A stretch of 64,000 nucleotides of DNA from Pseudomonadota bacterium (GTDB lineage Bacteria; Myxococcota_A; UBA796; SXON01), in assembly GCA_030685065.1 (NCBI GenBank), contig JAUXQH010000024.1, positions 126,501-190,500 on the forward strand. The letters run 5' to 3'. Position numbers and translations under genes: made by a program. Under the pieces are notes generated by a model, which had not been told where the DNA came from, did not search any database, and saw only the letters and a list, made by a program, of their open reading frames with translations. Shown here one piece after another: positions 37,927 to 52,344 of this stretch (positions are counted from its first letter, which is position 1; every line of letters starts with the position of its first letter).

Positions 37927-40686
37927 ATGGTGATCCCGCTCCGCCGTCTGCTCGTCGCCGCGCTGCTCCTCACCGCGGGGCGGGCCCACGCGGGGGAGGG
38001 TGTCGGCCGGAGCGGGGGGGGCGTTGCGGGGGGCTCCCCCCCGCCCCAAGAACCCACGTACAAGGTCATCGATCTGGCCGCGCTGCGAAACCATGACCTG
38101 TTCGACGGCTCGAAGTCGCCGCTCTTCCGCCTCCGGGACGTCGCCCCCTGGGCCCCGCCGGTGCCGCTCGCCTTCGACCCGAAGGGGGCGCCCGACGTCG
38201 TGTTGCTGAAGAGCGCGGACGCGAAGGACGCGCCGCTCGAGGTCAAGGTTCCCGTCGGGGGGGCGGCGCGCACGCTCTACCTCCTCACCGCCGGGCAGGG
38301 CCCCCTCGGCGTGCGTGACATCGCTGCCGACGGCGAGGTGCACTACGCGGACGGCCGCACCCAGCCGCTGAAGTGGATGGTGGGCGAGCAGGCGTGGCCC
38401 GCCTGGGCAGGCGCGACCGGTCGCAACGCGGAGCCCATCGCCATCGGGTGGAACCCCGGCGGAGACCTGCTCACGGCCTCCCTCGTCACGGTCGACGTGT
38501 CCTGGCCCGACGCTCCCATCGCGTTCATCACGGTGAAGTCGCGCCCGGGCCCGCTGTCGTTCGCGCTCCTGGCGGTCACGACGTCCGATGCGTCGCCGGT
38601 CACCGTCGGCCCCATCGCCGACCGCGCCCCGATGGACGGGTACGAGTTTCGCGTGCCCGCCGTCCTGGCGGCGCCGTTGCCCATCGATCCCGCGCTCGCC
38701 GTCACCGGCCCGGCCGACCGCGCGATCGTCGTCTCGGACGGGCACCTCGCCTACGGGGACGCTTCGCGCCTCGGGCAGGAGCGGGCGCGCTTCTGGGGCA
38801 TCAACCTCGTCGGGACCGGCGCGTTGCCCGACCTCGACGTCGCCGAGATCTACGCCGCGAGCCTGGCGCGGGCGGGCTTCAACATGGTGCGCCCCCACCA
38901 CATGGACGGGGACGGCGAGGGCACGCTCGTCAACCCGAAGCGCGGCGAGCCCGGCGAACCGCTCGCGCTGCCCGAGGCGCTCGACCGGATGGACCGCTTC
39001 CACGCGGCGCTCAAGGCCGCGGGCGTGTACGTCTACCTCGAGACGTGGACCCTCCGGAGCTTCCGCCCCGAGGAGGGGGTGCCGTCGCCACGCGGGCTCG
39101 TGGTCGGGAACAAGTACGCGCCCTTCTTCTGGAAGGAGTACGCCGACGCGAAGAAGGCCTGGGTGCGGGCGCTCTACGACCGGGTGAACCCCTACACGGG
39201 GCTCCGCTATGCCGACGATCCCGCCGTGGCGCTGTTCGAGATCGCCAACGAGGACAGCCTGCTGGTGGCGTGGAGCAGCGGCGCCCTGGAGCGGCTCCCC
39301 GGCGACCATCGGCGCCGCCTGGACGAGCTCTGGAACACCTGGCTCCGCAGGCGCTACGCGAACGACGCCGGCATCAACGCGGCGTGGAAGGGCCCCATCC
39401 GCGCGGGGCTCCAGATGGGCGAGACGATCTCGCTCGACTCGGTCGCGCGGGAGCCCGCGTCCCGCGGCCGTACGGAGCTGTTTCCCCCGGCGCGGGCGGC
39501 CGACCTGGTGCGGTTCTACGGCGAGCTCGAGGCCGCGCACCACGCGGACATGGCCCGCTTTCTGCGGGACGAGCTCGGGTTCCGGGCGCCCATCGTGTGC
39601 AACACGTCGTTTGGGGTGCCGCTGGCCGATGCCCAGCTCGCGGCGTGTGACGTGGTGGATCTGCACGTCTACTGGGACCCCATCGCCGAGCAGAACGTGT
39701 ACTTCGATCACGCGATGATCGAGCGGCCGCTACACGGGCGAGTCCTGGAGAAGCTCTCGTGGTGCCAGGAGGGGAAGCCCTGCACGATGAGCGAGCTGAA
39801 CCACAGCTGGCCCAACCGGTACGGCCACGAGGCCCCGCTCGTCTGGTCCTCGCTCGCGGCGCGGCAGGATCTCGACGCGGTCCTCTGGTTCGCCTACTCC
39901 CACGGGAGCTTCGAGCCCGCGCCCGACGGCCCGGGCGGCGCCCTCGATCTCGCCGGGCGCTTCTCGTCGTGGGTGCAGATGCCGACGGCCTCGGCGCTCT
40001 TCCGGAGCGGGGCGGTGGCGCCCCCCTCCCGGCGGTTCGTGCGGTGGTGGAGCCCGAGCGGGCTGTTACGCGACCTCGCGGAGCCCTCCAGCTTGTGGCT
40101 TGATCCGCAGGTCTCGTGGCAGAGCGCGCTCGACAACGTGCTCCGCACCTCCTTCGCGGCGATGCCGCCCACCCTTTTGCCCGCGCCCGGCCCAAGCTGG
40201 AGCCCCGTGCGTTGGTGGCCCGAGGAGGGCCGTTGGGTGGTGGATACTCCCCGCTTCCAGGCCGTCGTCGGGCGTACGACCACGCCCATCCTGCAGCCGG
40301 GCGCCGAGCCGGACCCTCACGCGCTTCGCGTGGCCCTCTCGTCGTTCGCGGCCGTGTCGCTCGCTTCGCTCGATGGTGCCCCGCTCGGCGCCGGGGCCGA
40401 GGGATGCCGGCGGGCCTTGCTGACGCTCGCGGGCCGCACCGAGCGCGACGGCACGCTCCGCAGCACCGGGGGCCCCGGTTCCCTCGTCTACGGCAAGGGC
40501 CCCGCGCGCCTGGAGCGGCTGGCGGGGTTCGTCGACGTGAAGTGGGCGGGGCGCCCGGAGGCGTGGAGCCTCGACCCGGTGGGAGCGCCAGTGGGGCGGA
40601 TCGCGCTGCGGCGCCTCGGCGGCGGGTGGTGGCGCCTGGAGACCGACGCGATCAGCTCGCCTTGGGTTGAGCTTCGATCTCGCTGA
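37927..40686 (+). CDS. Secreted clan-A glycoside hydrolase-like protein
   Basis: The 919-residue protein has a signal peptide (ends RAHA) and an N-terminal beta domain (~45-270), then a TIM-barrel-like domain (~275-700) and a C-terminal beta part. In the barrel, FEIANEDS gives a probable acid/base Glu442 (the N-E pair of GH5/GH-A) and TMSELNHSW a probable nucleophile Glu623. FNMVRPHHMD and DVVDLHVYWDP are typical barrel strands. It probably cleaves a beta-linked glycan. The neighbouring polymer genes suggest a role in self-polymer trimming, but the substrate is open. Its last 35 bp overlap the convergent polymerase-like gene. Confidence 0.75.
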   Translation: MVIPLRRLLVAALLLTAGRAHAGEGVGRSGGGVAGGSPPPQEPTYKVIDLAALRNHDLFDGSKSPLFRLRDVAPWAPPVPLAFDPKGAPDVVLLKSADAKDAPLEVKVPVGGAARTLYLLTAGQGPLGVRDIAADGEVHYADGRTQPLKWMVGEQAWPAWAGATGRNAEPIAIGWNPGGDLLTASLVTVDVSWPDAPIAFITVKSRPGPLSFALLAVTTSDASPVTVGPIADRAPMDGYEFRVPAVLAAPLPIDPALAVTGPADRAIVVSDGHLAYGDASRLGQERARFWGINLVGTGALPDLDVAEIYAASLARAGFNMVRPHHMDGDGEGTLVNPKRGEPGEPLALPEALDRMDRFHAALKAAGVYVYLETWTLRSFRPEEGVPSPRGLVVGNKYAPFFWKEYADAKKAWVRALYDRVNPYTGLRYADDPAVALFEIANEDSLLVAWSSGALERLPGDHRRRLDELWNTWLRRRYANDAGINAAWKGPIRAGLQMGETISLDSVAREPASRGRTELFPPARAADLVRFYGELEAAHHADMARFLRDELGFRAPIVCNTSFGVPLADAQLAACDVVDLHVYWDPIAEQNVYFDHAMIERPLHGRVLEKLSWCQEGKPCTMSELNHSWPNRYGHEAPLVWSSLAARQDLDAVLWFAYSHGSFEPAPDGPGGALDLAGRFSSWVQMPTASALFRSGAVAPPSRRFVRWWSPSGLLRDLAEPSSLWLDPQVSWQSALDNVLRTSFAAMPPTLLPAPGPSWSPVRWWPEEGRWVVDTPRFQAVVGRTTTPILQPGAEPDPHALRVALSSFAAVSLASLDGAPLGAGAEGCRRALLTLAGRTERDGTLRSTGGPGSLVYGKGPARLERLAGFVDVKWAGRPEAWSLDPVGAPVGRIALRRLGGGWWRLETDAISSPWVELRSR
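38016..38051. repeat. GC-rich intragenic repeat, short copy
   Basis: The 17-bp core GGGGGGCGTTGCGGGGG (38016-38032) and the 3' end CCCCCCGCCCCAAGA (38037-38051) both recur at 51343-51493. Here they are joined directly and translate as a Gly/Pro linker (GGGVAGGSPPP) just after the signal peptide. Together they look like an internally deleted copy of one repeat. Confidence 0.6.
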
Positions 40687-42130
40687 CCGTGGCGCTGAGC
40701 TCGAGGACCGCCTCGGGCTCGGCCTCGAGCTCCTCCTCGAACCCGGCTTCCGTGATGAGCCCGGCGCGCGCGGCGTGGAGGTTGTTGAACTCGACCAGCG
40801 AGAGGATGGCCCACTGGTAGATGGCCACCTCGTAATATTCGAGGATGTTGTCGGTCAGGTTGAGGAGCGCGTACGTGACGGTCATCGTGACGTACACGTG
40901 GGAGATGTAGGTGAGGCGGTTGTCGAGGCGCCGCTGGATCATGCGGAAGCCCTGCCAGAACATGACCCCGAGCACCCAGAGGAACGCCAGGAAGCCGACG
41001 ATGCCGGTCTCGTAGAGGACGCGGAGGTAGCCGTTGTGGGGCGCCGCCTCGACGCCGAAGATCTCGACCCCCAGCATGACGGAGCTGCCGGCGCCGAAGC
41101 CGAACCAGGGGCGATCCCAGAAGCGACGGATGATCTCGTCCCAAAAGTAGAGACGCCAGCCGACGCTGGAGTTCAGATCATAGACGTTGTCGCTGCCGAG
41201 CACGTCGCCCACGCTGGTGAAGCGCTCGAGGATGCCGCCGCCGAACCCGAGGAGCACGACCCCGCCGACCGCGGCCGCCGCGAAGATGTAGGCCCGCTTC
41301 CCATACACCCAGGACAGGTACAGGAAGCAGAGCCCCATCGCGAGCCAGGAGATGCGGGTGTAGGTGGAGATCTCCAGCGCGACGAGCAGGACGATGTAGA
41401 GGAGTCGCAACGCCCGGTTTTTCACGCGCGGATCGAGAAACTCCGCGTACGCGAGGCAGAACAGGAACGTCAGGTACATGCTGAAGTGGGCGGGGTGGAA
41501 GAAGCTCGAATTGACGCGGTTGTACCCCTCGGTCACGTCGTTGCCCGTGCCGGTGATCCACTGGAAGAAGCCGTACACGATGGGGATGACGCTCGACGCG
41601 TACATCGCGGAGATCACCTGCCTCACCATCTTCCTGTCGATCATGTCGCTGATGATCAGGTAGGTGAAAAAGGGCGCGGCGAGGCGGGTCACGAAGCGAA
41701 CGGCCCAGCGGAAGTCGGGCGCCCAGAACATCGAGATCGCGAAGAGCCCGAGGAACACGCCGTAGGGGAGGGTGAGGGAGCGCCCCTTGAACGGGTTCTT
41801 CCAGAGCACGAGGAAGTAGACGATGCCGATGCCCGTCGCGAGGACGTTGGCGAGGCCGCCGAGGTCGAAGTTGAGGCCCTCGGTCCCCATGCGCTCGCCG
41901 CCCGCGATGAAATTGCGGAGGGAGATCAGCATCAGGAAGCCGAGGATGAACGCGCGCGGGTTGGCCAGGAAGAGCCCGGCTCCCACGCCGACGATCGCGA
42001 GCGCGACCATGTAGTTCACGCCGCCGAACCCGAGGGCGAGCGCGAGCGGGACAGCCGCGGCCGCGGGCAGGATCAGCTGACGAACGGGATCCGAGCCGAA
42101 GTCGGCGAAAGGAGAGCTCTTCACATCCAT
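40652..42130 (-). CDS. O-antigen ligase/Wzy polymerase-like membrane protein
   Basis: The 492-residue protein has about ten to twelve transmembrane segments and a long periplasmic loop. It carries the Wzy_C/ligase pattern (SVGWRLYFWDEIIRRFWDRPWFGFGAGS, followed by APHNGYLRVLYETGIVG). This family polymerises lipid-linked repeat units or ligates them to an acceptor. The C-terminal tail is acidic and cytosolic. Near the flippase and glycosyltransferases it most likely acts as the polymerase. The ATG is clear; it is 65 bp from a divergent GT4 gene. Confidence 0.8.
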   Translation of the reverse strand: MDVKSSPFADFGSDPVRQLILPAAAAVPLALALGFGGVNYMVALAIVGVGAGLFLANPRAFILGFLMLISLRNFIAGGERMGTEGLNFDLGGLANVLATGIGIVYFLVLWKNPFKGRSLTLPYGVFLGLFAISMFWAPDFRWAVRFVTRLAAPFFTYLIISDMIDRKMVRQVISAMYASSVIPIVYGFFQWITGTGNDVTEGYNRVNSSFFHPAHFSMYLTFLFCLAYAEFLDPRVKNRALRLLYIVLLVALEISTYTRISWLAMGLCFLYLSWVYGKRAYIFAAAAVGGVVLLGFGGGILERFTSVGDVLGSDNVYDLNSSVGWRLYFWDEIIRRFWDRPWFGFGAGSSVMLGVEIFGVEAAPHNGYLRVLYETGIVGFLAFLWVLGVMFWQGFRMIQRRLDNRLTYISHVYVTMTVTYALLNLTDNILEYYEVAIYQWAILSLVEFNNLHAARAGLITEAGFEEELEAEPEAVLELSATVSEIEAQPKAS

Positions 42131-42195
42131 CCGTCGGGCGAACGCACGCGGCAGCTTACCCGGATGGGGGTGCGGCGGTTAGTCGCCGAGGCACG

Positions 42196-43392
42196 ATGAC
42201 CGGGGACCCTCACAGCATCTCTCGGGATGCGCCGTCCGCGCCCGCCGGGCGGCCGCCCTCCGGACGACCGCTGCGCATCCTGCAGGTGGCCCGTGTGTTC
42301 TGGCCGAACATCGGCGGGATCGAGCGCCACGTCCAGTGGTTGTCCGAGCAGCTGGTGCGCCGCGGGCACGTGTGCGATGTCGTCACGCTGAACCGCTCGT
42401 TCGAGGATGGCTCCTCCTATCCCGCGTATGACGAGCACAACGGCGTGCACATCTGGCGCGTCCCGTTCGTGGGGAGCACGCGCTACCCCATCGCGCCGCG
42501 GGTGGCTCGGTTCGCCTCTCGCTACGATGTCGTGCACGTGCACGCGGTCGACTTCATGGCCGACTGGATGGTCGCGACGAAGCGGTGGCACGGCCGGCCT
42601 GTGGTGCTCTCCACGCACGGGGGTTTTTTCCACACGGCCTTCGCCCCGACGCTCAAGAAGCTCTGGTTCCAGACCGCCACGCGGGCGATGCTCTCGGGCG
42701 TCGACCGCCTGCTCTACACCTCGGATCAGGACGAGGAGCTGTTCCGCGTGATCACGAGCAAGGGCGTGATCCTTCGGAACGCGGTGGACCTCTCGCCGTG
42801 GGAGGGGCTGGGGCGGCCGGTGGAGGGCGCGTGGGTCACGATCGGGCGTGTCGATTCGCACAAGGGCCTGTCCAACCTCGTCAAGACGCTCGCCGCCGTG
42901 CGGGACCGTGATCCGCGTCCGTTCCGCGCGGAGGTGCTCGGGCCGGAGGTCGTCCCAGGCCTCGTCGCCGGGCTGGAGCGCGAGCGGGACGCGTTGGGGC
43001 TCCAGGATCGCCTCGTGTTCCGCGGCAAGGTGACGCAGGAGGAGCTGGTCGCCGCGGTGGACCGCGCGGATCTCGGCCTGTTCCCTTCGGAGTACGAGTC
43101 GTTCGGCATCTCGGTGGTCGAGGCCATGGGCGCCGGCCTGGTGCCGGTGCTCAACGACATCCGCGCGTTCCGATACTTCATCGACGAGGGGCGGAACGGG
43201 TACATCACGCGCTACGCCGATCCGTCGGCCGCGGCCGCCACGATCCTGCGAGCGCGGGACCTCTCCGCACAGGACGGTGCGCGGCGGGCCGCGGTGGGCG
43301 CTGCGGCGCGCGCGAAGGCGCAGACCTATGCGTGGGAGCACGTCGTGGGGGATGTCGAGGATGTGTATCGGGGCGTGATCGCCGGGCGGTGA
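42196..43392 (+). CDS. GT4 family glycosyltransferase
   Basis: The 398-residue protein has two Rossmann-like domains. The N-terminal has VFWPNIGGIERHVQWL and VVHVHA; the C-terminal has TIGRVDSHKGLSNLV and the EX7E motif in PSEYESFGISVVEAM. This is a retaining GT-B enzyme that adds a sugar (often mannose, glucose or a related sugar) from a nucleotide donor to a lipid-linked intermediate in the cytosol. A ~25-residue Pro/Ser-rich leader before the first strand may be unstructured. It is part of the polysaccharide region. Confidence 0.85.
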   Translation: MTGDPHSISRDAPSAPAGRPPSGRPLRILQVARVFWPNIGGIERHVQWLSEQLVRRGHVCDVVTLNRSFEDGSSYPAYDEHNGVHIWRVPFVGSTRYPIAPRVARFASRYDVVHVHAVDFMADWMVATKRWHGRPVVLSTHGGFFHTAFAPTLKKLWFQTATRAMLSGVDRLLYTSDQDEELFRVITSKGVILRNAVDLSPWEGLGRPVEGAWVTIGRVDSHKGLSNLVKTLAAVRDRDPRPFRAEVLGPEVVPGLVAGLERERDALGLQDRLVFRGKVTQEELVAAVDRADLGLFPSEYESFGISVVEAMGAGLVPVLNDIRAFRYFIDEGRNGYITRYADPSAAAATILRARDLSAQDGARRAAVGAAARAKAQTYAWEHVVGDVEDVYRGVIAGR

Positions 43393-43452
43393 CGGCGGGT
43401 GCCCGCCGCGGCGGGTCGGGCCGAGCTACCTGGGCGGGCGAGAGGGATCCCG

Positions 43453-43671
43453 ATGCTGCTCGTCCTCGCCCTCCTCGCCGCCTGCGCCGACGGGGCGCTC
43501 GAATGCCGGGTGGTGCAGGACACCTGCAGCTGCGCGGCGCCGCTCGCCTGCCTGTCGCGCCGGGAGGCCGACGCGCTCCCGGCCTGCGACATGGAATGCC
43601 CGGCCGACAGCGCCAGCGACACCGCCGTCCCGACTTGCATGGAGGACGACGGGAGCTGCGGCTTCCGGTAG
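43453..43671 (+). CDS. Small Cys-rich lipoprotein
   Basis: The 72-residue protein has a short lipoprotein signal (MLLVLALLAAC) and a mature part of ~60 residues with eight Cys (CxCAAPLACL, CDMEC). This suggests several disulfide bonds in the periplasm or on the surface. No family was recognised. A GAGAGGGA precedes the ATG. The stop is directly followed by the left repeat of the integrated island, so it is the last gene before it. Confidence 0.6.
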   Translation: MLLVLALLAACADGALECRVVQDTCSCAAPLACLSRREADALPACDMECPADSASDTAVPTCMEDDGSCGFR

Positions 43672-43699
43672 GGGGTCAGACCCCATTACTTATCACTTG
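43672..43699. repeat. Left 28-bp island-edge repeat
   Basis: It contains the palindrome GGGGTCAGACCCC and then ATTACTTATCACTTG. It matches 47898-47925 at 25 of 28 positions; all three differences are transitions. It begins one base after the stop of the preceding gene. Confidence 0.75.
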
Positions 43700-43765
43700 T
43701 TGTCAAGCGCGCCCGGCCCATCCGTTCAGAAGCTACCTTAGAAGGCCATTTCTCCGAAGGATGCG

Positions 43766-43815
43766 GGGACACCGACCGGGGGATTCCGGGCCGTTTCCGG
43801 GCCGGTCGGTGTCCC
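43766..43815. repeat. 14-bp perfect inverted repeat
   Basis: GGGACACCGACCGG (43766-43779) is the exact reverse complement of 43802-43815, with a 22-nt loop. It lies 15 bp beyond the stop of the leftward 127-residue gene. It may be a transcription terminator or part of an element end. No T-run follows in the leftward direction. Confidence 0.6.
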
Positions 43816-43830
43816 TTCTGTGCCCTACGG

Positions 43831-44214
43831 TCAAACCGTCACTTTTGACCAGTCTACCGGACCCTCGCCAGCCGGGCTCGAGGACGCCTTGCGCCGCCGG
43901 CCTCGAGCCGGCTCGACCCAGGTCGGGGTTCGGACGAGCGCGGAGTACCAGCTGCGCGCGGCGGTCGCGTCCGCGAAGAAGGGGCGCGAGCCGTCGCGGG
44001 TGCGGCGGCGGTGCGCGCGGATGGTCGAGTCGTCCACGCCGATGGCGCGCGCGACCTCCACCCACGTGGCGATCGGGCCGGGCGCCGTTTCGAGCGCTAG
44101 GTGTCGAGGACTCGGCGCGAGCACCGCAACCTCAACCTCGGGCTCGCGGTCGGGGAACTCGAACCCCTCGTAGTCGTCCTCGGTGACGGCTTCGTCGAGC
44201 GGGATGTAGCTCAC
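43831..44214 (-). CDS. Small HTH-like island protein
   Basis: The 127-residue protein has an acidic N-terminus (DEAVTEDDYEGFEFPDREPEVEVEV-like) and a middle segment (~55-95) with helix-turn-helix character: TWVEVARAIGVDDSTIRAHRRR. A basic C-terminus (GRRRKASS) follows. DNA binding is likely, perhaps as a regulator or excisionase-type factor of the island. The start is GTG with a strong AAGGAG 6 nt upstream. No exact family was recognised. Confidence 0.55.
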   Translation of the reverse strand: MSYIPLDEAVTEDDYEGFEFPDREPEVEVAVLAPSPRHLALETAPGPIATWVEVARAIGVDDSTIRAHRRRTRDGSRPFFADATAARSWYSALVRTPTWVEPARGRRRKASSSPAGEGPVDWSKVTV

Positions 44215-44334
44215 GTAGGGCTCCTTTCTTGGAAGATGGGCGACAGGACGGCGACCGAGATCGCCCCGCCCTCCCCCACGAAGGAGGGAGAGCAATGCGA
44301 GGCCCCGGATCGTCCTGTCAGGCGCTTCCTGCTG

Positions 44335-44370
44335 GCGCCGAGCTACGGCGCAGAGGCAGGTTATGCCTCT
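44335..44370. promoter_or_regulatory. Pair of hairpins between two island genes
   Basis: GCGCC/GGCGC (44335-44351) is followed by AGAGGCA-GGTTA-TGCCTCT (44352-44370, a perfect 7-bp stem). They lie in the 193-bp gap between two leftward island genes and may form a terminator or regulatory structure. Confidence 0.4.
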
Positions 44371-44407
44371 ACGCGGCGGGGGCGACAGCGTGCTCGGCAG
44401 GGGCGGA

Positions 44408-45352
44408 TCACTTCGCGCCGAGGCGCCCCATACCGTCGATCCACTCCTCGACCTCGGCCCACGCGGCCAGCGCGACCGCCTCGGCCTCGTCGGGCTCGAG
44501 TTCGGGATCGGCGGCCAGGTCCGGTACGAGGACGAGGAGGGCGGGCTCGGGCTCCTCGCCCTCGGGCTCAAGCTCGAGGAGCGCGGCAACCCCGCGCTGG
44601 ATCGCCTGGAGGCGGGCAGACGCTCCCGGCTTCTCCTCGTCGGCCTCGTCCTCGTCCTCGTCGGGCAGGGGCTCACAGCGGGTGAAGTCGAGCAGCCGCA
44701 GGCGGGGGCGGGGGCGGGGGGCAGCGGGCTCGGGAAGCGCGAGGGCGAGCACGAGCGGCGGGGGGGCGAGCGCGGCGCGGATCGCGGCGGCGACGTCAGG
44801 TACGTCGAGCGCATCCCAGCCCGCGCGGCGCCAGGCTCCAAGCCCCCAGATCCCGACGCAACCGCCCGAACCCCCGACCACGGCCGAGGCGGGGCGCTGC
44901 GGGGGCTGCAGGAGCACGCGCACCGGCACGCCGGGGAGGAGGGCCTCGGCGCGCACGAGCGCGCGGGTCGTCGCCTCCGAGAGGTGCTCGGGTGCCGCGA
45001 CGTGGATGATCACGCGCGGCGGATCGTCTTTGACGACGGCGGCGATCGCCGCGGTGGCAGAGGCTTCCGCGCGCGACCGAACGCCCTCGTCATCAGCACG
45101 ACCGGTCGCCCAGAAGACGTCCGAACCGGTGCGGTGGTGGGTCACCTCGAGCGCCGCTCCGTCGAAGCACAGGACGTGCGGGGGCGCGGGGGGAACGTCG
45201 TGAGTGGCCGCGCGGATGGCGTTCACGATCGCGTTGTGAAACCAGGATTCAGCACGGACTTCAATGGCGAGCGTCGCGACGGCGGGGCCGGTCGACTTGG
45301 GCGCGCGGATCTTCAGCTTCTTCGCCTTCGGCGGGATCTTCTTGATGGACAC
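44408..45352 (-). CDS. Uncharacterised island protein with acidic C-terminus
   Basis: The 314-residue protein has a basic N-terminus (KKIPPKAKKLKIRAPK). The core (~25-200) has alternating strands and helices, including VLCFDGAALEVTHHRTG, DPPRVIIHVAAPEHLSEA and a Gly-rich GGSGGCVGIWGLG. The C-terminal third is highly acidic (PDEDEDEADEEK). No signal peptide and no known family were recognised. The start is GTG with GAGGTG 7 nt upstream. It is the longest unknown gene in the island and a good candidate for cargo. Confidence 0.55.
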   Translation of the reverse strand: MSIKKIPPKAKKLKIRAPKSTGPAVATLAIEVRAESWFHNAIVNAIRAATHDVPPAPPHVLCFDGAALEVTHHRTGSDVFWATGRADDEGVRSRAEASATAAIAAVVKDDPPRVIIHVAAPEHLSEATTRALVRAEALLPGVPVRVLLQPPQRPASAVVGGSGGCVGIWGLGAWRRAGWDALDVPDVAAAIRAALAPPPLVLALALPEPAAPRPRPRLRLLDFTRCEPLPDEDEDEADEEKPGASARLQAIQRGVAALLELEPEGEEPEPALLVLVPDLAADPELEPDEAEAVALAAWAEVEEWIDGMGRLGAK

Positions 45353-45715
45353 GGGACACCTCGGAGGTGCCCCCGCATGAAGACGACGTAGACCCGCTAG
45401 GAACACCCCAGAGGCGCACGTCGCCCCCACCCCGATTTCGGGTTGCGGAGGCGGAAGTGCGACCGATCCGAGGCGCCGCGCGGAGAGGCCCCAAAAGAGG
45501 GGCGTCCAGCGGCAGGTGGTTCGACAGCCCGACGGAGATAGCTGAACCCGGACTCGTTGTCAGCTTTTCTTTTGGATGATGTCGCCGAGCGCCGCGTGCA
45601 CCGTGGGTGTCGGCCGCGTTGCCCGCGTCCCGGTGCGAGGGGGCGACTGTGGCAGCCCCCTCGGGTGGAGGGGTGCCCGGTTGCTCCCACTCGCTCGGCT
45701 AGCTCAGGACTCCGA
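45353..45715. other. Gene-poor 363-bp stretch in the island
   Basis: No coding frame here has a credible start and protein. It holds a local A/T-rich patch (near 45575) and GC-rich inverted segments such as GGCCCC-AAAA-GAGGGGC (45490-45505). It would include the promoter of the leftward 314-residue gene, but no clear -35/-10 is visible. A TAGCTCAGG near 45703 resembles a tRNA D-arm without the rest of a tRNA. Confidence 0.4.
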
Positions 45716-46027
45716 CTACCGCTTGGGTCGGGGGGGCCGGTAGGGCGTCAACCCGAGACTGCGCTGTTCCATCCACCGAAAACCGCCCCTCGTCTCCAAG
45801 TCGATGCGCAACATGGTGAAGGCATTAAGCATCGCATCCATGGAATCCCACCCGGCGACCTCGAGCGAGTAATTGATGGGCTCTCCAATGCGAAATGTGG
45901 ATGCCCAACGGGGCCCCACCGGCACAGGAACCTCGATGGTCACCTCCACATCGACCTCCTCGGAGGGGGGAGCCCGGTACCGGTAAATTCGCTGAACGGC
46001 TACGATTCTTCCGTCAGAATTGCTCAT
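45716..46027 (-). CDS. Small protein, possible immunity partner
   Basis: The 103-residue protein is beta-rich (VDVEVTIEVPVPV, then IGEPINYSLEVAGWDSMDAMLNAF). It begins 6 bp after the stop of a Cys-rich short gene, and both are in locally lower-GC DNA. That order (toxin fragment, then small downstream protein) resembles polymorphic toxin/immunity cassettes. The function is inferred only from arrangement and composition. Confidence 0.5.
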   Translation of the reverse strand: MSNSDGRIVAVQRIYRYRAPPSEEVDVEVTIEVPVPVGPRWASTFRIGEPINYSLEVAGWDSMDAMLNAFTMLRIDLETRGGFRWMEQRSLGLTPYRPPRPKR

Positions 46028-46033
46028 TCGTCC

Positions 46034-46285
46034 TCATTCAGGGAGCGGAGTCGTTCCGGCGAGACAGGCTGTGAGAATCGCCATGCACCGTGCATTACAG
46101 CGAATCCACTCGTAACTCCAATACGATTCGGAGTCACAGTTCCTGATGCACTGCTGGTAGGGCGGGTCGCACTGGTCATGCCTATCAACGTACACTTCCG
46201 CCAACTTGGCGAGTCCCCATCCGACCCCGACAGCTGCAGCTACAATTGGTCCGGCACCAAGCCCAATCCCCTCGCGAAGCTCCAC
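46034..46285 (-). CDS. Cys-rich C-terminal toxin-like fragment
   Basis: The 83-residue frame starts at GTG 46285. It begins with a hydrophobic Gly/Ala-rich segment (GLGAGPIVAAAVGVGWGLAKLA) and then a Cys-rich region (QCDPPYQQCIRNCDSE, CNARCMAILTACLAG) with six Cys. This resembles the C-terminal end of Rhs or other polymorphic toxins, separated from its N-terminal part. The frame stays open to the right, but third-position composition suggests that the DNA right of ~46286 belongs to the other strand. It may be an orphan module or a remnant. Confidence 0.4.
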   Translation of the reverse strand: MELREGIGLGAGPIVAAAVGVGWGLAKLAEVYVDRHDQCDPPYQQCIRNCDSESYWSYEWIRCNARCMAILTACLAGTTPLPE

Positions 46286-46297
46286 CGCATCCGTGGC

Positions 46298-46453
46298 GTG
46301 CACGCGCACCCGGCCGTGCTCGTGTCCGTGGAGCGCATGACCGAGGCCGAGGCCGAGGGCTGGTACCGCCTCATCCAGAACATGGAGGAGGACGCGCGGT
46401 CGGCGGGGGCCCGTGAAGGTGCGCGCCAGCCGTGGAAGTGGGGCGGGTTCTAG
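46298..46453 (+). pseudogene. Remnant of a + strand gene at a mosaic junction
   Basis: From GTG 46298 (or ATG 46337) to TAG 46453, nearly every third codon position is G or C, which fits host-type coding. The peptide has an amphipathic helix (EAEAEGWYRLIQNMEEDAR) and ends PWKWGGF. No ribosome site precedes the GTG. It looks like the 3' end of a truncated gene. It overlaps the end of the integrase gene by 4 nt on the opposite strand. Confidence 0.3.
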
Positions 46454-47748
46454 CGGATCGGGACGACGTTTCCCGTGTCCACGGCCTCGGGCTTCATGTC
46501 GATGGGTGCGACGAGCCCAACGGCCGCAACGAGGGCAGCGTCCGATGGTCGGGCATAGTGCTGCCCCCGCGTGTCGATCGCCGCGTGCCCGACGAGGTAG
46601 TCGATGGTGCGGTCGGACACGCGGTGGACGGGCGCCCCGTCCACTTCCACGGTGATCCCCTGAAGCTCGGACATGTACGCGGCGCGGAACGCGTGGTTCG
46701 GGCGTGCCTTCCGACGGTGGAGCGGACGGGCCACGTTCGGGCGCACCTCGCCAGCCTTCTCGGCGGCGGCCCACAGTTCGTTGATGACGTTCGTGTCGGG
46801 CTCGACGTGGCCGCTCGCCGTGGTGTCCGTCGCGAAGAGGTAGTCGTCGGGGCTCTTGCACGCGGCGATGCGCGTCTGCCACGCGTCGACGAGCGAGCGG
46901 GGGATGGGCACCGTCCGCATCTCCGCCTCCTCCGCGGCCGACTTACCGACCTCGACCGTAAGGGTAGCCCGCACCGGATCCACGGCCCGACGACGGATTC
47001 CGGTGACCTGAAAGACGCGGAGGCCCGTCAGGCGCTCCCCGGCGAGCACGTCGCCGAGGTCTTCGGACACGTCGTAGGCCCGCCGGATGACGGCGTCGCA
47101 CTCGGCCCACGTCGGCGCCGTCGGCGCGCCCTTCTGCCGGGGAACGGGCGGGATCACGAGTTCCCGGTCGACGAGCGGAGGGATGCCCGGGTAGGTGACG
47201 GGCTGCGACGCGCAGTAGCTCCAGATCGAGAAGAGGTGCCCCGAGAGGTGGTACCGCCAGAGGGGCCCACACGCGCCGGGCTTCCGGCCCTTCGTGCCGC
47301 TCCCGGCAGCCTCGTCCTCGGCGATCCACTTGTTCCGCAGCTCGGTGAACAGGTTCACGTCGAGCACGGAGACGGGGATCACGTCCTCGTCCGCGATGCG
47401 GCGGACCTTTCGGACCGTCCCCATGATGCGGGCGATCGCGCTCTTGTACCGACTGCGGGTGCTCTTCTTCCGGTCGCGTGACGACTGCCAGGCGAGCCAG
47501 TTCAGGGCCGCGCGCTCGAGGTTCGCCGCCGTGGTGACGACCCGCGCGGCGGGCTCGTACACGTCGCCGGACTCGAGGGTTCGGCGGAGCTTGCCGACGA
47601 GCGCGTCTCGGGCGCTCTTGTCGGTGACGACCTGGGAGCGGGCCTTGCGGACGCGCAGCCCGTCCTCGACCACGTCCTCACGCCACCGGATCTTGTACTT
47701 GCCGCCGTCGAGGGGGGTGATGCTGAGGCTGATGTTGTTGCGAGCCAC
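46450..47748 (-). CDS. int: Tyrosine-type site-specific recombinase (integrase)
   Basis: The 432-residue protein has an N-terminal SAM-like core-binding region and a catalytic domain with the tyrosine-recombinase residues: Arg in TGLRVFQVTGI (~243), HAFR (His and second Arg, ~350), VGH (~386) and the Tyr in QHYARP (~395). These residues cut and rejoin DNA at attachment sites. All appear intact. It lies near the right repeat, and attachment sites are normally next to int. The N-terminal segment (KYKIRWREDVVEDG) is the arm-type-binding part seen in phage-like integrases. Confidence 0.88.
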   Translation of the reverse strand: MARNNISLSITPLDGGKYKIRWREDVVEDGLRVRKARSQVVTDKSARDALVGKLRRTLESGDVYEPAARVVTTAANLERAALNWLAWQSSRDRKKSTRSRYKSAIARIMGTVRKVRRIADEDVIPVSVLDVNLFTELRNKWIAEDEAAGSGTKGRKPGACGPLWRYHLSGHLFSIWSYCASQPVTYPGIPPLVDRELVIPPVPRQKGAPTAPTWAECDAVIRRAYDVSEDLGDVLAGERLTGLRVFQVTGIRRRAVDPVRATLTVEVGKSAAEEAEMRTVPIPRSLVDAWQTRIAACKSPDDYLFATDTTASGHVEPDTNVINELWAAAEKAGEVRPNVARPLHRRKARPNHAFRAAYMSELQGITVEVDGAPVHRVSDRTIDYLVGHAAIDTRGQHYARPSDAALVAAVGLVAPIDMKPEAVDTGNVVPIR

Positions 47749-47897
47749 GAGGGCCTCCCGTGCCCCTTGTGTGTCCTCTAAGTGCAGACCGAAGTGGAGG
47801 GGCTCCCTACGATACCGCTCCCATCGACCTTTTCGACGGGTACAGCTAAGGTATCCCTACTACACTTGCGACAGGCCAAGCAGGTGAATCCGCGGGT

Positions 47898-47925
47898 GGG
47901 GTCAGACCCCATCATTTATCATTTG
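47898..47925. repeat. Right 28-bp island-edge repeat
   Basis: GGGGTCAGACCCC followed by ATCATTTATCATTTG. It matches the left repeat at 25 of 28 positions in direct orientation. It lies 150 bp beyond the integrase start, within a 340-bp stretch (47749-48088) without any credible gene. Confidence 0.75.
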
Positions 47926-47970
47926 GCGCCCATCCAAATTCTCGGCGTTGTCCCGTGGGCCAGCCGCGCC

Positions 47971-48055
47971 AAGTGGTAAGTCGTAAGGTCAGACCCCCAT
48001 CATGAATAGTCGGCGTTTGCTCGTTCCAGGTGATAAGTCGTAAGGTCAGACCCCC
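47971..48055. repeat. Tandem pair of inverted-orientation repeat copies
   Basis: Two 28-bp units (47971-47998 and 48028-48055) agree at 26 of 28 positions. They contain GTAAGTCGTAAGGTCAGACC-type sequence, the reverse of the island-edge repeats (which contain ACTTATCACTT after the palindrome). So four members of one family cluster here, in REP-like fashion. Confidence 0.65.
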
Positions 48056-48088
48056 TCCGGGGGCACCGCCCGCGGGGTAGGAGGCCGC

Positions 48089-48745
48089 ATGCTCCTCGCC
48101 CTCGTGCTCCCCGCCGCCGCCGCGGGCATCCCGGCTTCGCTCACCGCCTACGATCAGGCCGTTACCAGCGTCACCCTCGCCCTGACCTCCGCGCTCCCCC
48201 GCCTCGCGGCGTGCAAGGCCGTGCCCGGCGAGAAGCTGGTGTTCAAGGTCAATCTCGCCGGTGTTCCGGTGGTCACGACCGTCGCGCTCACCGGCACGGC
48301 CTCCGCGACCGTGTCCGCGCCCTGCCACGAGAAGGTGGTGGCGGACGTGTTCACCCGCTCCCGGCCCTCCGTCGGGCTCGAGGCCGCCGTCGTCGTGGAC
48401 GTGTTCGGCGGCACCCCGCGTCTCGACGGAGACGTCGCGTTGTTCGGTTCGCTCGGGCGCGAGGCCATCGAGAGCGGCGTGCGCACGCGCATGGATCGGG
48501 TGGCCCAATGCTACGTCAACGCCCTCGAGGCCGCGCCCGGGATCAAGGGCGATGTCGTCGTGAGCATGACCGTGCTACCGACCGGCCAGGTGCTCTCCGC
48601 CGACCTGAAGCGCACGACGTTGTGGAGCCCGCCGACCGAGGCGTGCGTCCTCAAGGAGATGCTGGGCGTCGTGTTCGCAGCGCCCGACGGCGGCGCGCTC
48701 GTGCGGGTGACCTACCCGTTCACCTTCAAGCCGCCCGAGCCCTGA
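48089..48745 (+). CDS. AgmX/PglI C-terminal-domain protein
   Basis: The 218-residue protein has a short export signal (MLLALVLPAAAA). A central domain and a C-terminal AgmX/PglI-type domain (~125-215) follow, with RMDRVAQCYVNALEAAPGIKG and GDVVVSMTVLPTGQVL, then a conserved Cys (EACVLKEML) and PFTF. The domain is abundant in myxobacteria and is related to TonB C-termini. It occurs in gliding-motility and other envelope proteins. Two Cys in the domain likely form a disulfide. Role here unknown. It is the first gene after the island. Confidence 0.75.
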   Translation: MLLALVLPAAAAGIPASLTAYDQAVTSVTLALTSALPRLAACKAVPGEKLVFKVNLAGVPVVTTVALTGTASATVSAPCHEKVVADVFTRSRPSVGLEAAVVVDVFGGTPRLDGDVALFGSLGREAIESGVRTRMDRVAQCYVNALEAAPGIKGDVVVSMTVLPTGQVLSADLKRTTLWSPPTEACVLKEMLGVVFAAPDGGALVRVTYPFTFKPPEP

Positions 48746-48782
48746 GCCCCGAGCCCTGAGCCCCGAACCCGAGCCTCGAACC
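48737..48782. repeat. Short tandem repeat between convergent genes
   Basis: The 14-bp unit GAGCCCTGAGCCCC occurs twice without change (48737-48764) and then decays (GAACCCGAGCCTCGAACC). The first unit includes the stop codon of the AgmX-like gene. It fills the gap to the convergent cupin gene. Confidence 0.7.
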
Positions 48783-48784
48783 GC

Positions 48785-49270
48785 CTACCGGTGCCCGGGC
48801 GCGTCGATCCAATGCCGATCGGGCCGCTCGGCCGTATGCCACGCCTCGAACGCCGGATCGTCGGGATAGCACGCGCGATCGCCCGCGCGGCGCTCGCCGA
48901 TGATGAGCATCGTGGCCTCGTCCGGCCCGCGGTTCACGAGGCAGTGCGCGATGCCCGTGCCCGCCGGAAACGAGACGAAGTCGCCCGCGGCGAGGGGGTG
49001 CTCCTCGGGCGCGGCGCCGGGCGCGATCACCCGGAGGTGCGGCGTTCCAGTGAGCACATAGACCGCCTCTTCCTCGTCCGAGTGGGCGTGCGTGAAGCTC
49101 GAACGCCGGCCAGGAAGGAGCCGCTCGTGCCAGACCCCGAGCCGCACCGAGCCGGCCGCGGTGCCGAGGTCTCGGCCAATCGAGAGCTTCTCCGCCGCGA
49201 AGGGCGGGGGATACGCCGCCTCCGTGGCGGGGACGCCGGCGGTCGTGACGATGTAGGACGGACGCGTCAC
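48785..49270 (-). CDS. Cupin-domain protein
   Basis: The 161-residue protein has a cupin barrel with both motifs: motif 1 FTHAHSDEEEAVYVLTG (G-x5-HxH-x3-4-E-like) and motif 2 PAGTGIAHCLVNRG. The metal ligands His, His/Asp, Glu and His are present. Such proteins bind a metal and act as epimerases, dioxygenases or regulators; no substrate is evident. The start is GTG and overlaps the upstream gene's TGA by 4 nt, so the two are coupled. Confidence 0.75.
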   Translation of the reverse strand: MTRPSYIVTTAGVPATEAAYPPPFAAEKLSIGRDLGTAAGSVRLGVWHERLLPGRRSSFTHAHSDEEEAVYVLTGTPHLRVIAPGAAPEEHPLAAGDFVSFPAGTGIAHCLVNRGPDEATMLIIGERRAGDRACYPDDPAFEAWHTAERPDRHWIDAPGHR

Positions 49271-49974
49271 TCCTTCACGCTCTTCGCGACGATGCGCTTC
49301 AGCCACCGCATGCCGCGGACCTCCTCGCTGTTGACGGTCTCCACGTCCACACCCAACGCCCTCGCGGTCGCGTCGGGTGAGCACGGCTTGCCCCCGAACA
49401 GGCCGTGGCGCGAGGCCAGCACGGCGCGCTCGCCGGGCTCGAGCTGGAAGAAGGCCTCTTCGAGCTGATCCCAGGTCACGCCGGTGTCCGGGCCGAACAA
49501 GGCGCCGAGCACGGCCGGTCGCGCCGGCTCGGGCACGGCCAGCCCGGCGTCCATGCCGCCGGGGCCGAACGTCAGCTTCGAGTCCGGCTCGTCCAGTGAT
49601 TCTCCCTCGTTGGCGCTGAAGTAGTCGACCGGCAGCGTGTTGGAGCGCGCCTCCTCCAGGGCCTCGGCGATGTTGACGGCCACGACGCAAGCGGCGTCAC
49701 GCACGGTCTCGACCTCGTCCTCCCAGACCAGGTCGTGCGAGAGGACCACCACCTGCTCGCCCTCGTTCACGTCGATCGCCCAGGCGTCTCCGTTGACGGC
49801 GCTGCCGATGATCCAGAGGCCTTGCGACGCGGAGTCGTGCCACTCTTCGCCACGGCTCTCCGCGACCATGTCCCCGAACGTAGGTAGGAACTCGATCGGA
49901 CCCACGACCGCGCCGAGGTTGCGCTTCAGGTGGGCGAGCACCGCGGGGGAGAACGGGGGGGAGGACTCGGGCAA
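49267..49974 (-). CDS. SUKH/SMI1-like domain fused to sigma-70 region-4-like domain
   Basis: The ~235-residue protein has an N-terminal domain (~5-110) that resembles SMI1/KNR4 (SUKH) proteins: LGAVVGPIEFLPTFGDMV, then QGLWIIGSAVNGDAWAIDV. The C-terminal ~65 residues resemble sigma-70 region 4: FFQLEPGERAVLASRHGLFGG, then ATARALGVDVETVNSEEVRGM. An acidic linker joins them. A TTG at 49974 with GGAG upstream is chosen; an ATG at 50058 would add 28 low-quality residues. It shares an operon with the cupin. Role unknown. Confidence 0.5.
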   Translation of the reverse strand: MPESSPPFSPAVLAHLKRNLGAVVGPIEFLPTFGDMVAESRGEEWHDSASQGLWIIGSAVNGDAWAIDVNEGEQVVVLSHDLVWEDEVETVRDAACVVAVNIAEALEEARSNTLPVDYFSANEGESLDEPDSKLTFGPGGMDAGLAVPEPARPAVLGALFGPDTGVTWDQLEEAFFQLEPGERAVLASRHGLFGGKPCSPDATARALGVDVETVNSEEVRGMRWLKRIVAKSVKE

Positions 49975-50105
49975 GGACGGCTCCGGGAGACGGCGGGATT
50001 TAGCACGGCGAGGGGCGGTGTCCGAGGGGTTTCCCGAGCGCGTCGGCAGTCTCGGCAACGCTGGGATCGGGGGTGAGGTTAGGAGGCGGACCTCCGGGAG
50101 CCTCC

Positions 50106-50849
50106 ATGTCCGTCGCCATCATCACCGGCGCCTCCAGCGGCATCGGCGCCTCGCTCGCGCGCGAGCTGGGCCGTCGCAAGTGGAAGGTGGGCGTGATCGC
50201 CCGTCGCGCGGACCTGCTCGATGCGATCGTGGCCGAAGTACGCGCGGCGGGTGGGGAGGCTTCGGCGGCCACCGCCGACGTGACGGACCGCGCGGCGCTC
50301 GACGGCGCGGTCCTCGCGCTCGAGGCGGTCCTCGGCCCGTGCGATCTCATGGTCGCCAACGCCGGCAGCGGCCAGCCCGTTCCCATGCACAAGCTGCCCG
50401 TCGACTCGATCCTCGCGACCATGCGGCTGAACTTCGACGGTGCCCTCTTCAGCGCCGCATCGGTCCTCCCCGGCATGCTCGAGCGCAAGCGCGGTCACGT
50501 CGCGGTGGTGTCGAGCGTGGCCGCGAACCGCGGGCTGCCGGGCAACGGCGGCTACAGCGCGAGCAAGGCCGCGGTCAGTACGCTCTGGGAGACCATGCGC
50601 GTCGATTTGCAGGGGCACGGCGTCCGGTGCACGACCATCCACCCCGGCTTCGTCGCGACGCCGCTCACGTCGAAGAACCGCTTCAAGATGCCGTTCCTCC
50701 TCACCGCCGACCAGGCCGCGTGCATCGTGGCGGACGGGTTGGAGCGCGGCGCCAAGGACATCACGTTTCCCTGGCAGATGCGGTGGGTCACCACGCTGAT
50801 GCGTTGGCTGCCCATCTGGGCGTGGGATCGGATGGCGCCGAAGCGGTGA
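50106..50849 (+). CDS. Short-chain dehydrogenase/reductase
   Basis: The 247-residue SDR enzyme has TGASSGIG (7-14) for NAD(P) binding, NAGSG, the catalytic Ser in VVSSVAA, and YSASK (~149-153). ARR after the second strand suggests NADPH preference. The C-terminal PFLLTADQAACIVADGLERG fits the common SDR subgroup of acyl or sugar reductases. The substrate is unknown. ATG at 50106 has GGGAG upstream. It is divergent from the SUKH-like gene. Confidence 0.85.
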   Translation: MSVAIITGASSGIGASLARELGRRKWKVGVIARRADLLDAIVAEVRAAGGEASAATADVTDRAALDGAVLALEAVLGPCDLMVANAGSGQPVPMHKLPVDSILATMRLNFDGALFSAASVLPGMLERKRGHVAVVSSVAANRGLPGNGGYSASKAAVSTLWETMRVDLQGHGVRCTTIHPGFVATPLTSKNRFKMPFLLTADQAACIVADGLERGAKDITFPWQMRWVTTLMRWLPIWAWDRMAPKR

Positions 50850-50869
50850 GGTTGGGTGGGGCGCGCGCC

Positions 50870-51181
50870 CTACGTCATGTAGAGCAGCGTCGGCGCGTCG
50901 ATCGCGAAGGCGGCGACGAGCAGCCCGAGCCCGCACGCCCAGCCGAGCAGGCTCGCGCCGAGCCAACGCCAGCGCCTTAGGACGATGAACGCGACGTGCA
51001 CCGGCAGCTGCGCCACGAGCGCGAACATCGTGACCAGGGCGAGGATCACCTCGATGGAGACCAGCGGGCTGGTCGTGTACGCAGCGGAGTGGAGCCCGAC
51101 CCGGTGAACCGCGGCCGTGCCGCACAAAAGAGCGGCGAGCACGGCCGGGAAGGTGGCGGGGAGGCTTCGGAGGAACGTCAC
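50870..51181 (-). CDS. Small membrane protein
   Basis: The 103-residue protein has three hydrophobic helices (~5-25, 40-62, 70-92) and few polar residues. No family was recognised. The start is GTG and overlaps the TGA of the upstream methyltransferase gene by 4 nt (GTGA), so the two are probably translated together. It may modify or carry the methyltransferase's product, but this is only context. Confidence 0.55.
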   Translation of the reverse strand: MTFLRSLPATFPAVLAALLCGTAAVHRVGLHSAAYTTSPLVSIEVILALVTMFALVAQLPVHVAFIVLRRWRWLGASLLGWACGLGLLVAAFAIDAPTLLYMT

Positions 51182-52344
51182 CCGGGCTTCATGGCCACGA
51201 ACGAACAGCTCCCCCCGATCCCGAGCAGGCTCCCGAGCCGATCCGGCGCCGAGAGCGCCTGGGCCAGGGGCACCACCGTGCGGGCGTAGAGCTTCGTGAA
51301 CCGGCTGGTGGGAGGAGGGCCGGACGTCGCTCCGGATGCTCCGGGGGGCGTTGCGGGGGACGCCGCAGGCGTCGCGGAGTCGGCGTGCGCGAGACTCGCA
51401 GCGCCCGCCCCGGCAAGGGGCGGAGCCGACGCAGCCCGCCCCCGGAGGCGGCCGGCAAGGCCGCCGTGAGGGGGCTGGCCCCCCGCCCCAAGATCTCCAC
51501 GACGATTCTTCATCCGACCGAGCCACGGCAGCATCCGATGGTCATGGAGGGGCTGAATCCACACGTTGAAGGAACGCAGGTCAAGCACTTGGAATCCCGC
51601 GCCTTCCAGCCGGGTGCGCATCTGTCGTCGCGTCGGCATGCGCTCGTGAAAGTGGCCCACGCTGGCCTGGCGAGCGGCGTAGTCGCCCGGGTCCCGCGAG
51701 CGCTGGAATCCGTCGAAGCTGCCGTCGATGTCCCGGACGGGCATGTGCACCACGAGGCGGCCGCCGGGCGCGAGGACGCGGAACGCCTCGGTGAGCGCGC
51801 GATCGAGGTGGGTGAGGTGCTCGAACACGTCGAACGCGACGACGGCGGCGAACGCGCCGTCCGCGAAGGGCAGAACCTCGGCGTCCCCGAGCACCCAGAT
51901 GGTGTCGCTGCCGCGGGCGCGCGCGGCGGCGTTCTGGGCCGCCACCCAGACCGGCGAGATGTCGAGGCCGGTGCCGACGATCCCGCGGGTGCGCTCAAGC
52001 CAGGGGAGCAGGCCCGAGCGGTGGCCGCCGATCTCGAGGACGCGGTCCCCGCGCTTGAGCGGCAGGGCTTCGAGCAGCCCCTTCTGGTGCACGAGCATCA
52101 GGTTGTGGGGGTGGTCGAAGTCGCTCATCGCCCCCAGGCGCTGGTCGTAGATGTCGGCCTGGAGGGACTTGTTCGGGTCGTCCGGTGCGTCGCCGGGCGC
52201 GCCGCCGCCACGCGGGCGCAGATCCCAGCCGCCGAGGGCCTCGGGGTACACGGTGCCGGCCGGGCCGGCGAGCCCGCCATGGACCGCGGTGAGCGGGCGT
52301 TTGTCGACGGGATCGGCGAGGTGCTTCGGGGGGATGGAGCTCAT
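51178..52344 (-). CDS. Class I SAM-dependent methyltransferase with Trm112-like start
   Basis: The 388-residue protein begins with a Trm112-like segment (KHLADPVDKRPLTAVHGGL). The Rossmann core has motif I VLEIGGHRSGLLPWL and FDVFEHLTHLDRAL, as in small-molecule methyltransferases. A ~60-residue Gly/Ala/Pro-rich insert (~295-350) is encoded by the long copy of a GC-rich repeat. Then a C-terminal KLYARTVVPLAQAL segment resumes. The target may be a polysaccharide sugar, given the neighbours. Its start overlaps the upstream AlkP gene stop (ATGA). Confidence 0.75.
   Translation of the reverse strand: MSSIPPKHLADPVDKRPLTAVHGGLAGPAGTVYPEALGGWDLRPRGGGAPGDAPDDPNKSLQADIYDQRLGAMSDFDHPHNLMLVHQKGLLEALPLKRGDRVLEIGGHRSGLLPWLERTRGIVGTGLDISPVWVAAQNAAARARGSDTIWVLGDAEVLPFADGAFAAVVAFDVFEHLTHLDRALTEAFRVLAPGGRLVVHMPVRDIDGSFDGFQRSRDPGDYAARQASVGHFHERMPTRRQMRTRLEGAGFQVLDLRSFNVWIQPLHDHRMLPWLGRMKNRRGDLGAGGQPPHGGLAGRLRGRAASAPPLAGAGAASLAHADSATPAASPATPPGASGATSGPPPTSRFTKLYARTVVPLAQALSAPDRLGSLLGIGGSCSFVAMKPG
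51343..51493. repeat. GC-rich intragenic repeat, long copy
   Basis: Ends match the short copy at 38016-38051: the 17-bp GGGGGGCGTTGCGGGGG (51343-51359) and CCCCCCGCCCCAAGA (51479-51493). Between them are nested palindromes such as GACGCC-GCA-GGCGTC and CGCCCC-GGCAA-GGGGCG. The ~151-bp unit is in frame in the methyltransferase and gives a low-complexity linker. Confidence 0.65.

Follow-up and report, generated by a model that had tools for sequence, protein, structure and literature searches.

Island ends and the split repeat array

The window analysed here is a stretch of 64,000 nucleotides (C52:126501-190500) of the genome G000, an assembly of 8.09 Mb in 175 contigs that is 92% complete and 5.8% contaminated. 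It carries a small island of 4,169 bp (positions 43700-47868), with the gene of an intact tyrosine integrase at one end and the gene of a small helix-turn-helix (HTH) protein at the other, inserted in an array of short repeats (Table 1). An earlier note had described this island as a 4.25-kb segment bounded by two 28-bp direct repeats, taken to be its attachment sites attL and attR. The integrase and both 28-mers are present as described; the latter are identical at 25 of 28 bases (89%), have the same orientation and exceed chance, and GGTCAGACCC occurs four times in the window against 0.32 expected occurrences, a count reached in none of 100 shuffles. Our analysis also supports an integrase-driven island. 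However, its ends are located at short CACTTG cores and not at the 28-mers.

The island lies within the first six bases of one repeat unit. CACTTG is found at both junctions, the exact ends being ambiguous inside this 6-bp core. Beyond the island, a gap of 29 bp leads to the following unit of the array, which is the right-hand 28-mer. Rejoining of the flanks restores a start-to-start unit spacing of 57 bp, the same as in 19 intact pairs of units (17 places examined, both islands of G000 left out). The restored array reads unit(-), 57 bp, unit(-), unit(+), 57 bp, unit(+), which is the layout of another array of the genome (C135).

A sister island of 21,051 bp on contig C172 (L085:1534-20000 and L086:1-2584) breaks a different array of G000 at the same base of the unit, with CAGGTG at its junctions, and rejoining of its flanks restores the 57-bp spacing as well (two of two islands). 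On the integrase side the junctions read CCTGTCG-CAAGTG-TAGTA in the window and CCTGTCG-CAGGTG-TAGTA in C172, and on the distal side GACAA-CAAGTG-ATAAGT and GACAA-CAGGTG-ATAAGT. The variable base of the core matches within each island (A/A in the window, G/G in C172). The restored spacer of the window matches the spacer consensus weakly (14 of 29 bases, a value reached by 201 of 20,000 random 29-mers), compared with 20 for C172 and 16-25 for intact units. The G+C content is 69.2% for the window island, 67.3% for the sister island and 71.5% for the window.

The sister island carries the second integrase of this kind in G000 (C172:1655-2950), 75% identical to that of the window and located beside the repeat units. 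Alignment of the two islands with blastn gives matches only near their termini, in the integrase region (77% over 1,207 columns) and in a stretch near the other end (76% over 125 columns), which corresponds to the small HTH gene. Both islands therefore have the integrase at one end and the HTH gene at the other, and the middle differs. Of ten C172 proteins tested, one is a divergent protein like family A DNA polymerase (Pfam below cut-off; phrog_17, E 2e-9), eight have no Pfam match and one has a weak HTH match. Because of the polymerase-like protein, the C172 island may be phage-derived, or a satellite; none of six peptide patterns from this protein matched in viral contigs.

A tRNA or Rfam element as the integration target was rejected, since the window holds no tRNA and positions 40000-52000 give no Rfam match at E up to 1. 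That the island splits a polysaccharide region, as had been proposed, holds only loosely: in the congener G002 the glycosyltransferase gene and the counterpart of the gene at 48089 are adjacent, and the roughly 0.8 kb between them is other DNA. The corresponding contig of a second congener, G001, ends at the island locus.

The repeat family and the RAYT-type gene

The units of these arrays are dispersed over the genome. In G000, GGTCAGACCCC has 41 exact occurrences genome-wide, which align as units of the form CARGTGATAAGTCGTAAGGTCAGACCCC, and a looser pattern applied to 21 fetched places, the window array included, finds 48 units. Oppositely oriented partner units are present in some of the arrays. 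With a 21-base unit pattern and up to 3 mismatches, three of 58 genomes match, namely G000 (46), G001 (9) and one more genome (1). BLAST with an 82-nt consensus (E <=10) gives 36 places in G000, 45 in G001 and 6 in G002, the best E values being 4e-30, 1e-8 and 0.05, respectively; the best E value and the 45 places in G001 therefore indicate diverged relatives of the repeat in that genome.

One array is associated with a gene of the RAYT type (REP-associated tyrosine transposase; REP, repetitive extragenic palindrome). This gene, on contig C23, is the single match of PF01797 in G000 at E <=0.001 (30.1 bits, cut-off 23), and its protein matches NF047646 at E 7e-18 with 64.9 bits, below the cut-off of 80. 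It is bracketed by inverted units, two upstream and three downstream, with the last downstream unit cut short. The suggestion in the earlier note that the repeats belong to a wider family and might be hot spots was thus nearly right, and the family can now be described as RAYT-linked.

Dispersal, inverted pairs and the bracketing of a RAYT-type gene liken the units to REP and REPIN sequences with their RAYT. However, the units differ in their 57-bp tandem spacing, in a RAYT score below the NCBI cut-off and in number, with 48 units at 21 places compared with the usual REP copy number of over 100 given in the available extracts of PMC2817692. The same extracts describe a GT(A/G)G head before the palindrome as a feature of REPs. 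Because this head is absent from the units, as judged by eye, we call them REP-like.

A further element adjoins the RAYT array. The gene of a group II intron-type reverse transcriptase (PF00078) is located at L041:3766-5611 (G000:C23:27765-29610), and the last unit beside it reads AAGTCGTAAGG and then shifts to an apparent intron 3' end. Some group II introns insert at hairpins, and an intron may also have taken a repeat unit as its target here. It is comparable to the island as another element at the G000 repeat, but it is RNA-based and unrelated to the island.

Integrase relatives and the other island genes

Across the 22 genomes of the family, 11 integrase matches were found in seven genomes (E up to 1e-10). 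A tree of 15 rows (12 of 25 genome loci, one of five viral loci and the two G000 copies) places the window and C172 integrases, G012:C228 and G015 in one clade with 100/100 support; one row of this tree is only 43% filled, one branch is very long and support is low for half of the inner branches.

A complete relative comes from another genus, G012. The integrase of G012:C228 is 59-61% identical, starts 114 bp from the palindrome GGTGACGGACGTC and has across this palindrome a RAYT-type gene (NF047646, 34 bits, below cut-off). The 13-mer GGTGACGGACGTC has 21 exact matches in 18 regions of G012, which by eye are nine palindromic repeats without integrase, four integrase starts, four coding-like regions and one unclear. 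All four starts (C228, C113, C332 and C338) lie 112-114 bp from a GACGGACGTC palindrome, one of them next to the RAYT-type gene, and the last three are at contig ends with 22-25 codons left. In C113, C332 and C338 (L133, L141, L142) the assembly breaks just inside near-identical integrase starts, which suggests several recent copies of one element in G012. A G012 distal end at C228:32847 was rejected as coding DNA. With up to one mismatch, TGACGGACGTCCGTC occurs in 19 of 22 genomes of the family, with 1 to 36 strand matches each compared with 0-4 for the reversed pattern, most sites being counted twice as the pattern is palindromic.

Upstream DNA was read for 24 of the 25 genome loci, and a neighbour could be called for 11, the remaining 13 having no visible junction in the stretch. 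Three of the called loci are G012:C228 (L147), G017:C138 (L150) and G015 (L148). The G017:C138 integrase (38% identical) also adjoins this palindrome, yet it is placed outside the supported clade; the G015 member is truncated and has a palindrome-like stretch upstream. The other eight are diverged integrases, located after the 3' ends of ftsZ (L149), acyl-CoA dehydrogenase (L151), radical SAM (L152), ychF (L153, L154) and MBOAT genes (L156, L157), all seven target genes being confirmed by Pfam over cut-off, and after tRNA-Met (L155). In L164 a relative of the HTH gene adjoins an integrase end. No relative of the integrase was found in phage and plasmid records at 1e-5, and viral contigs gave five loci of 24-33% identity. 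The 34 stretches of viral contigs that match a 16-mer of attP (the attachment site of the circular element) are taken for chance, given the size of that collection.

The integrase residues R244, K269, H352, R355, H388 and Y398 are invariant in a six-row alignment and presumably form the catalytic set R..K..HxxR..H..Y of tyrosine recombinases. The C172 copy of the HTH protein matches the recombination directionality factor (RDF) family phrog_6947 at E 0.028, and the window copy has no RDF match at 0.1. The model of the HTH protein (pLDDT 69) has a confident helical core at residues about 51-100 and no significant fold match (all E over 0.5); our guess is that the protein is excisionase-like. 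Past the HTH gene, close to the distal end but still within the island, an inverted repeat GACACCGACCGG...CCGGTCGGTGTC is present at 43768-43813.

The 314- and 127-residue genes inside the island, which do exist, had been regarded as the best place for a new system. That expectation is not borne out, as the 127-residue frame is the terminal HTH gene common with the sister island and the 314-residue frame is an orphan. Among 63 genomes of the order the latter matches itself and one weak 61-residue stretch (E 1e-4), no family is matched over a cut-off, and its AlphaFold model has a mean pLDDT of 39; which strand is coding is uncertain, as both are open. A defence system in the island was rejected as well, since PADLOC gave only two matches for the five island proteins, both at E 0.034. 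The Cys-rich frame and the DUF6968 gene (45716-46246) are arranged like a two-gene unit, and one possibility is a putative pair of the toxin-immunity type.

Table 1. Features of the island and of the array that it splits (window coordinates; rc, reverse complement).
Feature	Position	Strand	Remark
Repeat unit with the island in its first six bases (43699-43694, minus strand)	43672..43699	-	
Attachment core, distal (HTH) end, CACTTG (rc CAAGTG)	43694..43699	-	Same unit position as CAGGTG at C172:22579-22584
Integrated island, 4169 bp	43700..47868	.	Flanks rejoin to 57-bp-period array; both terminal genes common with sister island
HTH protein, 127 aa (GTG start 44214), distal end	43831..44214	-	Sister-island counterpart 52% identical over 84 aa
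Orphan reading frame, 314 aa	44408..45352	-	No family match over cut-off
DUF6968 protein, 103 aa	45716..46027	-	41.2 bits, over cut-off 27
Cys-rich reading frame, putative start	46034..46246	-	Ends 6 bp before DUF6968 start
Tyrosine integrase, 432 aa	46450..47748	-	PF00589 21.9 bits, below cut-off 27.1; phrog_1 integrase E 8e-13
Attachment core, integrase end, CACTTG (rc CAAGTG)	47863..47868	-	Same position as CAGGTG at C172:1528-1533
29-bp inter-unit spacer of split array, right of island	47869..47897	-	Restores start-to-start 57
Next intact array unit (second 28-mer)	47898..47925	-	
Oppositely oriented unit, split array	47970..47997	+	
Second oppositely oriented unit, 57 bp further	48027..48054	+	

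Target of the integrase

The positions of both junctions, the unit spacing of 57 bp in the rejoined flanks, the insertion of the sister island at an identical base, the common terminal genes and the repeats around a RAYT-type gene can all be read from the sequence. They argue for a site-specific island with a tyrosine integrase that takes a dispersed, RAYT-linked repeat as its bacterial attachment site (attB). We put the probability of this reading at about 0.85. The attP of the circle (...GACAA-CARGTG-TAGTA...) would recombine with the first six bases, CARGTG, of a unit (...CARGTG-ATAAGT...), and integration would split the array and leave CARGTG at both junctions. It is probable that this integrase catalyses the event and that the RAYT transposase spreads the repeat, which would provide dozens of landing sites per host; the HTH protein might control the direction, and the element may still be able to excise.

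Within G000 the target assignment is strong, with two islands at an identical base of the unit; how general it is depends on one further genus, with a biased count. Several observations weigh against repeat targeting. The search for an empty site that exactly matches the window array gave none, and at the G002 locus, whose flanking genes have 75-88% DNA identity to the window flanks, both the array and the island are absent. In G012, the palindrome search itself yielded three of the four integrase starts, which biases the count, and these three are not represented in the tree; for all four islands of this genome the distal end could not be located, and their palindrome has another sequence than the repeat of G000. 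A further G012 island end (C160) carries an HTH gene and a terminal CTTGACAA motif, but the 102 bp of its outer flank contain no such palindrome; this contig carries no convincing integrase (best tblastn E 0.47). Finally, PF01797 missed the RAYT-type gene at G012:C228, and further RAYT genes in G000 may therefore have been missed.

The 28-mers themselves could serve as attL and attR, since they are nearly identical, point the same way and have an integrase nearby. However, the same unit occurs 48 times at 21 places while two islands were found, the bases around CARGTG, 29 bp inward of the right 28-mer, recur on the integrase side of the sister island, and excision at the 28-mers would take out a normal array spacer; this makes such a role extremely improbable. 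It is also very improbable that the repeats arrived in or beside the islands after insertion, or that homologous recombination between repeats brought the islands in. RAYT/TnpAREP may mobilise REPs (available extracts of PMC8266576), and REPs occur at recombination junctions (available extracts of PMC1525189), but the two islands interrupt different arrays at an identical point and the 57-bp spacing is exactly restored in both, which speaks against these alternatives. The integrase might instead recognise palindromic or hairpin-forming intergenic DNA generally, and not the RAYT-linked repeat as such. The different palindrome at the G012 targets, GACGGACGTC, and the group II intron-type gene that also adjoins the array beside the RAYT-type gene would fit this, but the two G000 insertions share both the target base and the core, and they lie outside the GGTCAGACC palindrome. 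We consider general hairpin recognition unlikely.

Islands with a tyrosine integrase normally have one attB, usually a tRNA gene or the end of a gene. The window island resembles such islands and prophages (phrog_1 / PF00589) in having the integrase at one end by the attachment site, a short core at both junctions and variable cargo. However, its attB is a dispersed repeat in dozens of copies and not a unique tRNA or gene end, while relatives of its integrase at about 30-40% identity sit after gene 3' ends or a tRNA. Insertion of insertion sequence (IS) elements into REPs is established (extracts of PMC8266576, PMC3390384, PMC1525189 and PMC2817692). According to the available extracts of PMC1525189, IS1397, ISKpn1, IS621, ISPa11, ISPpu9 and ISPpu10 insert specifically into REPs, REPs are mentioned at the junctions of lambda bio recombination, and the IS110 type is likened to site-specific recombinases, with no tyrosine integrase named there. 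These elements are comparable to the island as mobile DNA inserting specifically into REPs, but they depend on IS transposases and not on tyrosine integrases with islands. The literature searched, mostly open-access and in part available as extracts, describes no tyrosine integrase that uses REPs as attB.

In its class of mobile element the island is ordinary, but its attB is unusual and well resolved. It might represent a lineage specialised on RAYT-linked repeats, in which a domesticated transposase seeds dozens of harmless attB sites for islands of very different size and recognition shifts with the repeat family between genera. We regard the chances of this broader reading as about even; it is weakened by the fact that, of the four integrase starts in G012, three are short fragments outside the tree. 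The integrase is a candidate multi-site integrase whose attB travels with a mobile repeat, so that another element would determine how many landing sites there are. The finding makes testable both the dependence of such islands on RAYT repeats and the way in which integrases change their target.

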